DNA from: Gammaproteobacteria bacterium
GTDB taxonomy: Bacteria; Pseudomonadota; Gammaproteobacteria; Pseudomonadales; JAUIET01
Assembly (NCBI GenBank): GCA_030429735.1
Contig: JAUIET010000002.1
Location: forward strand, 666,414-730,413
DNA: 64,000 bases
Reading direction: 5' to 3'
In this document: positions 29,212-54,691 of the stretch, piece after piece
Layout: each line of letters opens with the position of its first letter
Position numbering within the stretch: the stretch's first letter is position 1
Program-made: the position numbers and the translations under genes
Notes under the pieces: model-generated
The model's database searches: none
Told to the model about the DNA's origin: nothing
Seen by the model: only the letters and a program-made list of their open reading frames with translations

Positions 29212-29321
29212 TGTGACAGCTACGAAAAACGACAAATATAATTCGAAAAAAGACAACACACACTACCACGGAATGGCACACTTTCTCCAATAGAATTCAT
29301 CATTGGAAGCCTACCGAACGA

Positions 29322-29522
29322 GCGTGGCGAGCGATGCATGGGTGTTCTGGAGCAAAGACCCAAAACGTGCACTGCGTTTACGGGGCCAGCTTTAGCGCCA
29401 AGGACGATGCACAGGGATGTGCAAGTGTCGCGAGAGGCAGGAAACCGATAGCGACCGGACGCGGGACCAGGCCAAGGATGGCCCATCTGAGCGGAAGAAC
29501 ACCCATGCATCGATCGTCTCGC
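29322..29522. repeat. Multi-hairpin element bounded by 16-bp inverted repeats
   Basis: GATGCATGGGTGTTCT (29333-29348) and its exact reverse complement (29496-29511) bound about 180 nt; complementarity extends imperfectly outward to about 29322 and 29522. Inside are hairpins AAACG/CGTTT (29363-29379), GCAC-AGGGAT-GTGC (29410-29423), GTCGC/GCGAC (29428-29456) and GGCC-AAGGAT-GGCC (29470-29483). Two of these share an A(G/A)GGAT loop. It fills most of the gap between the CdhR-like gene and the BKACE gene. It could be a dispersed REP/MITE-type element or a structured 5' leader. No protein coding is likely. Confidence 0.6.
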
Positions 29523-29554
29523 GGCGCTACGAAGGCACAGCCGCGGAGAACACC

Positions 29555-30463
29555 ATGCCACTAGAAATGAACCAAAACGTATTCATCACCTGCGCCGTCA
29601 CCGGCTCCGGCGGCACCCAGGACCGAAGCCCCCACGTCCCACGTTCCCCAGAGCAAATCGCCAACAGCGCCATCGCTGCCGCAAAAGCCGGCGCCGCCGT
29701 GGTCCATTGCCACGTGCGCGACCCCGACACCGGTGTACCTTCCAGAAGCCCAAAACTGTACCGCGAAGTCACAGACCGCATCCGCGACGCTGATGTTGAT
29801 GTAGTGCTGAATCTCACTGCCGGAATGGGCGGCGATCTAACCTTTGGTCCCCCCGATCAGCCGCTGCCATTTCGGGAAGGCACAGACATGGCCAGCGCCG
29901 AAGACCGAATGGAGCATGTTGCTGACTGTTTGCCTGAGATATGTACTCTCGATTGCGGCACCATGAACTTTGCCGAAGCTGACTATGTGATGACTAACAC
30001 ACCCGGAATGCTGGAGGCCATGGGCGCCATGATGACCGAGCTGGATGTTCAGCCGGAGATTGAAGCTTTTGACACAGGCCATCTCTGGTATGCCAAAAAG
30101 CTGGTTGAAGACGGCATACTGAAAAGCCCGGCACTTGTACAGCTGTGCATGGGGGTTCCCTGGGGGGCGCCGGATGATTTGAACACGTTTATGGCCATGG
30201 TCAACAACGTGCCTTCTGATTGGACCTGGTCTGCGTTCGCATTGGGTCGCAACGAAATGCCGTATGTTGCTGCGGCGATACTGGCAGGCGGCAATGTGCG
30301 CGTCGGTTTGGAAGACAACCTGTGGCTGGACAAAGGAGTGCTGGCTAAAAATGAAGATCTGGTAGCGCGAGCCGTGACCATTATTGAAAATATGGGTGCC
30401 AATGTGATGGGTCCACAGGATGTACGTGACAAACTCGGTCTGACCAAGCGCGCACCCCGATGA
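29555..30463 (+). CDS. cdhC: BKACE family 3-dehydrocarnitine cleavage enzyme (CdhC-like)
   Basis: Beta-keto acid cleavage enzyme (DUF849), 302 residues. It condenses a beta-keto acid with acetyl-CoA; in carnitine catabolism 3-dehydrocarnitine plus acetyl-CoA gives betainyl-CoA and acetoacetate. Zinc ligands sit in VVHCHVRDPDTG, and the substrate region includes DCGTMNFAEADYVMTN and VGLEDNLWLDKG. The track starts at 29417 in noncoding sequence; the ATG at 29555 has GGAG seven nt upstream and begins MPLEMNQNVFITCAVTGSGG, the normal family start. It overlaps the carnitine dehydrogenase start by ATGA. Substrate is assigned from that linkage. Confidence 0.85.
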   Translation: MPLEMNQNVFITCAVTGSGGTQDRSPHVPRSPEQIANSAIAAAKAGAAVVHCHVRDPDTGVPSRSPKLYREVTDRIRDADVDVVLNLTAGMGGDLTFGPPDQPLPFREGTDMASAEDRMEHVADCLPEICTLDCGTMNFAEADYVMTNTPGMLEAMGAMMTELDVQPEIEAFDTGHLWYAKKLVEDGILKSPALVQLCMGVPWGAPDDLNTFMAMVNNVPSDWTWSAFALGRNEMPYVAAAILAGGNVRVGLEDNLWLDKGVLAKNEDLVARAVTIIENMGANVMGPQDVRDKLGLTKRAPR

Positions 30464-53294: not shown

Positions 53295-53408
53295 GGCTTG
53301 AGTCAGCATACTCCCCATCCAGGACAGAGCGTAAATACCTCCCTGTAACTTCGTCAAAAAGGTCCCTCTTTTTGACGGTCCTGAATGGGGAGTATGCTGA
53401 CTCAAGCC
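53295..53408. repeat. 114-bp palindromic element (MITE-like or regulatory hairpin)
   Basis: Arms of 31 bp with a single mismatch begin GGCTTGAGTCAGCATACTCC and end in its complement. Within them lies a second perfect hairpin, CGTCAAAAAG-N6-CTTTTTGACG (53352-53377). No coding potential and no clear target-site duplication. It sits between the divergent amidohydrolase and MFS genes, ending 29 nt before the MFS start. It could be a miniature transposable element or a structured control region. Confidence 0.7.
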
Positions 53409-53437: not shown

Positions 53438-54691
53438 ATGTTTCAAACAATGAAAGTTAACAGCCCGCGTTTTGTGCTGGGCATTTTGTTTTTCGTTGCT
53501 CTTTTTAACTATCTGGATCGCATGATTCTCGCGATCTTGCTGGAGCCAATTAAAGCCGAGTTTTCACTGAGCGACACCCAGTTGGGTCTGTTGACTGGTC
53601 TTGCGTTTGCAATGTTTTACGCAAGCTTCGGTATTCCGCTGGCGCGTATGGCTGACACAGGAAACCGTCGCACAATTATTGCCTGGTCAGTGGCGGCCTG
53701 GAGTGCGCTCACCATGGCTTGTGGCATGGCGCAGAGTTTTATTCAGCTGTTGGTGGCGCGGATTGGCGTTGCCATTGGCGAAGCTGGGGCAGTGCCGCCT
53801 TCGCATTCATTAATTGCTGATTATTATCCACCCGAGAGGCGCGCGGGTGCGCTGGCGGTGTTTTCATTGGGTAGCACTGCGGGCTATTTGATCGGTTTTG
53901 CCTTGGGTGGATTTGTAGCAGAGCATTACGGTTGGAGGATGGCGTTTTTGCTGGTTGGGTTTCCGGGCTTGTTGTTCGCATGGGTGGTGCGCTTTAGCCT
54001 TGCTGAGCCGCGTACAAACGCCCCGCACAGCATCCAACCGGCCGACGACACTGTTTGGACAGCGGCGCGGATATTGCTGACCAAGCCGAGCTACCGAATG
54101 ATTCTGGCCGGCTTTTCGTTTTATGCGATCTTGTCTTACGGTGCGACGCAATGGGTGGCGTCTTTTCTGATTCGCACTCATGACATGGGGCTTGCCGAGG
54201 TTGGTTTTCAATACGGCATGGTGGTGTCGTTGTCGACGGCTGCAGGCGTTATGTTTGGGGGGTGGCTGAGCAATCGCCTGTACGTGAGCGATGCGCGGTG
54301 GGCTGTGCGAATTCCGGCAATCGCGTGCCTGCTTGGGTTTCCGGTGTCGATCGCAGTGTTCAGTCTATCAAATACCGTTATTGTCATTGCGCTGATGGGC
54401 ATATTGGGTTTTAGCTTTGGAGTAACCACGCCGCCGGCAATGGCGGCGGTGCATGTGATTGCAGGTGAACGGCGCCGGGCTTTGGCGATTGCGTTTGTAT
54501 TCCTGATGACGAATTTGGTGGGACTTGGAGTTGGGCCGGTTATTATAGGCGCCGCCAGCGATGGCCTTTCGCAGAGCTATGGCAATACGTCGCTCGGCAT
54601 TGCGATTCTTTTCTGCCATGCCTTGTTGCTCGTTGCGGCTGCCTGTTTTTATGGGGCGGGGCGTACACTGCACGCAGACGCTGAGCCGTGA
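53438..54691 (+). CDS. MFS transporter (spinster-like)
   Basis: Inner-membrane major facilitator of 417 residues with twelve predicted helices. TM1 ends FNYLDRMILAILLEPIKAEF, typical of the spinster-type/anion-cation group, and the loop 2-3 motif is RMADTGNRRTII. TM5 carries SLGSTAGYLIGFALGGF. AAGAG precedes the ATG. It is the first gene of a unit with an EthD protein, a DUF1214-like protein and an SDR, so it probably imports (or exports) that pathway's substrate. Substrate unknown. Confidence 0.88.
   Translation: MFQTMKVNSPRFVLGILFFVALFNYLDRMILAILLEPIKAEFSLSDTQLGLLTGLAFAMFYASFGIPLARMADTGNRRTIIAWSVAAWSALTMACGMAQSFIQLLVARIGVAIGEAGAVPPSHSLIADYYPPERRAGALAVFSLGSTAGYLIGFALGGFVAEHYGWRMAFLLVGFPGLLFAWVVRFSLAEPRTNAPHSIQPADDTVWTAARILLTKPSYRMILAGFSFYAILSYGATQWVASFLIRTHDMGLAEVGFQYGMVVSLSTAAGVMFGGWLSNRLYVSDARWAVRIPAIACLLGFPVSIAVFSLSNTVIVIALMGILGFSFGVTTPPAMAAVHVIAGERRRALAIAFVFLMTNLVGLGVGPVIIGAASDGLSQSYGNTSLGIAILFCHALLLVAAACFYGAGRTLHADAEP

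Follow-up and report, generated by a model that had tools for sequence, protein, structure and literature searches.

The window analysed here, a stretch of 64,000 nucleotides, contains a carnitine operon in which the first gene is a BKACE gene (PF05853) and the next encodes carnitine 3-dehydrogenase (NF005716, above cut-off). A structured element lies 5' of the first gene, with a promoter-like sequence upstream and the Shine-Dalgarno sequence and start codon downstream, in agreement with the earlier note, which had placed it in the promoter-leader region of this operon. The features of the leader are:

29213–29242, + strand: promoter-like GTGACA-18-TATAAT, upstream of the insertion (a consensus match only, 11/12)
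29283–29542 (ends approximate), + strand: lineage-specific insertion in the leader, with about 14 bp in its place in the same-genus relative G001, from the alignment of the araC-BKACE spacers
29322–29348, + strand: 5' arm of the long stem, the innermost 17 bp perfect
29357–29393, + strand: module M2, GACCCAAAAC..GGGGCCAGCTTT; similar inserts GGACCCAAAGC..GGGGCCAGCTTT are in loci L002, L033 and L007
29400–29458, + strand: module M1, GGACGATGCACA[GGGA]TGTGCAAGTGTCGCG...GCGACCGG, 85–88% identical to four other copies
29408–29423, + strand: hairpin TGCACAGGGATGTGCA, hexaloop AGGGAT, candidate CsrA site
29427–29455, + strand: hairpin GTCGC...GCGAC with AGGA inside, a degenerate relative of GGCAGGATGCC in other copies
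29470–29483, + strand: hairpin GGCCAAGGATGGCC, hexaloop AAGGAT, candidate CsrA site
29496–29522, + strand: 3' arm of the long stem
29543–29557, + strand: Shine-Dalgarno GCGGAG and ATG (29555) of the BKACE gene, immediately 3' of the insertion

In G001 the araC-BKACE spacer reads TGGCACACT, then 14 bases, then GCGGAG and the start codon, and carries no element; the window genome has approximately 260 bp at the site of those 14 bases. As read from this alignment, the comparison shows that approximately 260 bp were inserted between the promoter-like sequence and the Shine-Dalgarno sequence in the window genome. No clear target-site duplication is seen at this insertion in the alignment with G001.

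The ends of the element, CGATGCATGGGTGTTCT and AGAACACCCATGCATCG, form an inverted repeat that is perfect over 17 bp (29332–29348 with 29496–29512) and can be widened to 27 bp at 89% (29322–29348 with 29496–29522). The earlier note was right that the ends are a perfect repeat but not in its length, given there as 16 bp. In a shuffled control of 400 kb from the same genome, the longest inverted repeat with arms no more than 500 bp apart is 13 bp, with none of 14 bp or more, and the 17 bp repeat is therefore far beyond chance. The predicted RNA fold of 29310–29535 is −100.1 kcal/mol on the + strand (z −5.0) and −94.0 kcal/mol on the − strand (z −4.1), both strands folding better than shuffled sequences. 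The enclosed hairpins match their earlier description, including the two with A(G/A)GGAT loops at 29408–29423 and 29470–29483, and hairpins with this hexaloop are present on the + strand only.

With ANGGA loops on the sense strand, between the promoter-like sequence and the Shine-Dalgarno, it is plausible that the element acts in cis as a leader RNA of the carnitine operon. The left-arm sequence GGTGTTCT (29341–29348) is perfectly complementary to AGAACACC beside the Shine-Dalgarno (29547–29554), as an alternative to the right arm; G001 has AGAAAACAG at the place of AGAACACC. This alternative pairing could be a switch or a coincidence.

Copies in the genome and across the Gammaproteobacteria

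An internal part of the element (query 77–137) is found in four other places in its own genome, at 85–88% identity (E 2e-14 to 5e-13), where module M1 is nested within the loop of hairpin 1 (hp1) of canonical elements. A covariance model of the family, built from 24 cores that are a subset of 80 database loci, has 37 matches in this genome and matches in at least 44 of 274 sampled Gammaproteobacteria genomes, the latter being a lower bound since the class-genome search used stricter filters. The search for multiple copies in the genome and its relatives that the earlier note had proposed has thus found them at both levels. One canonical copy is in the window itself:

53295–53408, − strand: canonical family member, the second in the window, with 24 bp perfect arms (model match 53316–53387, E 2e-11)

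This copy is in the spacer between divergent genes, upstream of an ORF whose start is at 53438. The sequence of its hp1 is different (AGTTACAGGGAGGTATTTACGCT), with compensating changes, and the UUUAC bulge is kept.

A scan of 84,980 species with an exact 18-mer identified at least 118 stretches, and all are from Gammaproteobacteria among the matches listed. Hosts include Stenotrophomonas, Xanthomonas, Marinobacter, and Microbulbifer, and the family is frequent among environmental and host-associated members of the class. The earlier note had suggested a dispersed mobile repeat of this lineage; the dispersal is borne out by the copies and by the empty site in G001, but the family is not limited to the lineage and extends across the class. 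At the gathering score no Rfam 15 family matches the window or the elements, and the sole match among the sequences of the element loci is a cobalamin riboswitch elsewhere in L198. Sub-threshold matches are to unrelated models, mostly long-stem miRNA models. The family was not met in the open-access literature searched.

The carnitine-operon element itself is only weakly matched by the family model (29458–29525, 15.8 bits). Despite this, it is placed in the family because it shares the nested module and the architecture, and from its sequence it is best called a rearranged composite member.

It is very improbable that the structure serves the carnitine operon alone, as an intrinsic terminator or attenuator. 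The leader position, the strong hairpin and the two alternative partners of the 8 nt in the left arm would suit such a role. No T-run intrinsic terminator was found in this leader, the structure is absent from the same-genus relative, and related modules are present elsewhere, so that the dispersed copies contradict this as the sole explanation. A single-copy leader structure is rejected on the same related modules and the 37 model matches.

Conserved anatomy and strand asymmetry

In canonical copies one arm of the long stem is followed by ACACGCCGTRAACCCATCCATGGGGGCTC, the second hairpin (hp2), GGTC and the second arm; read along the GGA strand, the core runs stem, hp2, hp1, stem. Hairpin 1 has a conserved GCC/GGC base, a UUYAC bulge, a covarying inner stem and the loop A-N-GGA-Y, while hp2 has a covarying stem and the same type of loop. 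Across the 24 cores, pairing is kept in 95.7% of pair cells. The covariation check proposed in the earlier note was positive, both sides having changed in 18 of 26 pairs and covariation being seen in 163 cells against 44.5 ± 5.3 when shuffled, with no slid register close to this. The outer stem and both hairpins covary, and the dispersal, the structure and the insertion are established.

In a larger set hp1 has six different inner stems, CCC/GGG, TAC/GTA, TCC/GGA, TGC/GCA, AGC/GCT, and CGC/GCG, around a constant A-N-GGA loop. This invariance of the loop is partly ascertainment and is inflated, because the exact 18-mer used to find the 80 database loci includes the hp1 loop, and the training set of the model was drawn from those loci. 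The outer stem, the hp1 variants of other genomes and hp2, which is outside the 18-mer, are less affected. The loops of hp2 are mostly ATGGAT, AGGGAC, AGGGAT, and AAGGAT, on variable stems with a closing pair that is mostly C-G. Extra hairpin modules with similar loops are nested inside some copies.

Among the imperfect stem pairs on the GGA strand there are 164 G.T and 46 A.C (3.6-fold, p about 1e-16), where similar numbers of the two would be expected if only double-stranded DNA mattered. The excess is also seen at stem positions 11–28, which are outside the search model (142 against 30), in sense copies, in antisense copies, in both halves of paired copies, and in hp2. It is therefore the single-strand folding of the GGA strand, whether RNA or single-stranded DNA, that is conserved; C-to-T mutation specific to one strand is a less likely source of the excess.

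Based on gene calls from a home-made hexamer model, copies in the 80 database contigs are sense to genes in 25 cases and antisense in 32, and those in the window genome, with strands taken from the model matches, divide about 11 to 9, with no clear bias. The sense bias expected of a leader function is absent from both sets, which speaks against a sense-leader role for every copy. Copies are often paired, about 55–370 bp apart, and 38 of 39 pairs share one inverted arrangement, so that transcription from either direction gives RNA with one GGA half. The one pair with the opposite arrangement, GGA half first, is L164 3390–3633. Three consecutive copies on the same strand, every 205–235 bp, are found at G284 C22 165558–166035 and C27 404798–405336; these are tandem, not inverted. 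An unrelated tandem repeat of approximately 117 bp, in three units (GATTCTGAGGAGTGCAGTGCAAGGCGC...), is at G000 C22 347080–347500 (L103), beside an inverted copy of its own start.

Repeats of the NEMIS/Correia type are described as affecting mRNA stability through RNase III cutting. By analogy, the copies might serve as long double-stranded hairpins in operon spacers, cut by RNase III or otherwise setting mRNA stability, with the stem being what matters and the loops incidental. The 30 or so near-perfect pairs of arbitrary sequence, the unbiased orientation and the presence of copies in spacers within operons, among them atpG-atpD, dnaJ-dnaK, and tuf (genes named by eye), would fit. Such a role leaves unexplained the invariant A-N-GGA-Y loops and the excess of G.T over A.C on one strand only, and is considered unlikely.

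Loops as candidate CsrA/RsmA sites

In structural work the high-affinity site of CsrA/RsmE is defined as an ANGGAX hexaloop that sits directly on a stem (PMC4005645), and the SELEX consensus is RUACARGGAUGU (PMC7652899). The hairpin TGCACAGGGATGTGCA agrees with this consensus at 11 of 12 positions. In the loops of the element the fixed positions are those fixed in the CsrA motif, and the free positions are those the motif leaves free. Csr/Rsm RNAs are recognised by having at least two hairpin loops with an A(N)GGA motif (PMC4005645), and the element has these as well.

The window genome has a CsrA gene, as do 40 of the 44 element-bearing genomes (as hand-read from tables). This is consistent with CsrA sites but not diagnostic, since 194 of the 230 genomes without an element have the gene as well. 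On transcription of the GGA strand, the stem would hold two or more hairpins within reach of a CsrA/RsmA dimer, and each copy would provide the RNA containing it with an additional high-affinity docking site. In this case that RNA would be the 5' leader of the carnitine operon, with a long hairpin and its docking sites near the ribosome-binding site. We infer this binding, the regulation of the carnitine operon and each step after the insertion.

The RNAs CsrB/CsrC and RsmX/Y/Z similarly carry several A(N)GGA hairpin loops each and follow the hexaloop rule (PMC4005645). These are sRNAs of single loci with their own promoters, whereas the insertions of this family are dispersed in multiple copies, each with a 30 bp stem of its own sequence. 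Overall, the feature is best explained, with moderate confidence when the docking of CsrA is included, as a composite copy from a previously undescribed family of mobile elements in the Gammaproteobacteria, which are small, structured and dispersed and add CsrA/RsmA docking hairpins.

The long stem and mobility

The outer stem is 29–31 bp long in most copies and is nearly perfectly paired, with a different sequence in each copy. In the window genome the stem interiors are 32% identical where the cores are at least 96% identical, and fixed short motifs border the stem on both sides (GACC outside, GAC inside). The mean identity among stems, 0.40 against 0.25 when shuffled, is a faint common consensus. 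When 26 stems were compared with their own genome, the matches of meaningful score were to their own two arms only, and matches to phages were at the level of chance (E 8). Capture of foreign sequence in the manner of CRISPR is rejected on these matches. The copying of target flank into an inverted repeat upon insertion is unlikely, because the conserved GACC and GAC motifs border the stem on both sides. The core may move into unrelated pre-existing hairpins, although the stems keep their faint consensus.

In the case of G240, approximately 38 copies share one stem at 85–93% identity, with 44 one-sided changes against 13 paired, two-sided changes. Stem correction is thus not instant, since one-sided changes exceed paired ones. 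Template switching during replication would be the likeliest source of the unique, near-perfect stems of new copies. Hairpins generated by template switching have perfect stems with compensated multi-base changes, and loop inversions, and are described for RNA genes, including rRNA and microRNA (PMC8794818). The family shares the perfect stems and the compensated multi-base changes but is a dispersed bacterial element. In L365 (G240) the core is inverted within its stem relative to sister copies, resembling the loop inversion of template switching. Giant hairpins with other cores, at G000 C22 239982–240142 and 58702–58920 (L098 and L088), have a 45 bp perfect stem and nested 20 and 25 bp stems; these are perhaps related element types.

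The element has terminal inverted repeats, no coding capacity, and multiple copies, as a MITE does. In G250 the core is within a MITE with CAGCAATTCCC ends and flanking duplications of 8–9 bp (read by eye), while the G240 copies have TA at their ends and have spread as whole hairpins. This raises the possibility of a REP-like or other non-autonomous transposon whose transposase would recognise the conserved hairpins as single-stranded DNA through contacts with the ANGGA loops, the likeness to CsrA sites being coincidental. No copies are found inside genes among the assessable copies of the 80 database contigs, and this strictly intergenic placement, with the empty site in G001 and the spread in G250 and G240, would fit such an element; the excess of G.T over A.C also fits one strand of single-stranded DNA. 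Y1 transposase matches are present in a somewhat larger share of the element-bearing genomes (34 of 44, hand-read from tables) than of the element-free ones (128 of 230), but the high-copy genomes G068, G074, and G240 have none, which leaves Y1/RAYT unsupported as the sole mobiliser. The fit of the loops to the CsrA motif at its fixed positions, with variation at its N positions, also speaks against this reading, which is considered possible but rather unlikely.

It has been reported that REP, REPIN, and BIME sequences fall into GTAG and CGTC super-families linked to RAYTs, with CGTC dimers found inside longer palindromes in H. neapolitanus (PMC3733652). The family resembles them as short intergenic palindromes in many copies and frequent inverted pairs. 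It differs in that no fixed unpaired GTAG or CGTC tag is present in the conserved core GAGCCCCCATGGATGGGTTYACGGCGTGTC, in its three-helix core of two hairpins and a long, hypervariable stem where a REP is a single hairpin of 20–40 bp, and probably in having no requirement for Y1. ERIC, NEMIS/Correia, and other bacterial MITEs are likewise palindromic, intergenic, and non-autonomous, at approximately 120–200 bp, and the G250 and G240 copies are MITE-like. The family differs from these in that copies from one genome have near-identical cores on unrelated stems and display conserved loops.

More tentatively, the mobile elements with docking hairpins may be a class-wide family that spreads CsrA/RsmA sites, either rewiring the operons that Csr contacts or soaking up CsrA, with a stem of fixed length in which both arms are rewritten in each copy by self-templated copying. 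The family is widespread in the Gammaproteobacteria, yet missing from Rfam 15. Independently of the CsrA reading, its near-identical cores on unrelated, near-perfect 30 bp stems are a clean natural experiment on the origin and maintenance of long perfect hairpins. If the loops bind CsrA, this global regulator would have a transposable binding site, and the birth of post-transcriptional regulons would be directly observable by comparing occupied with empty sites.
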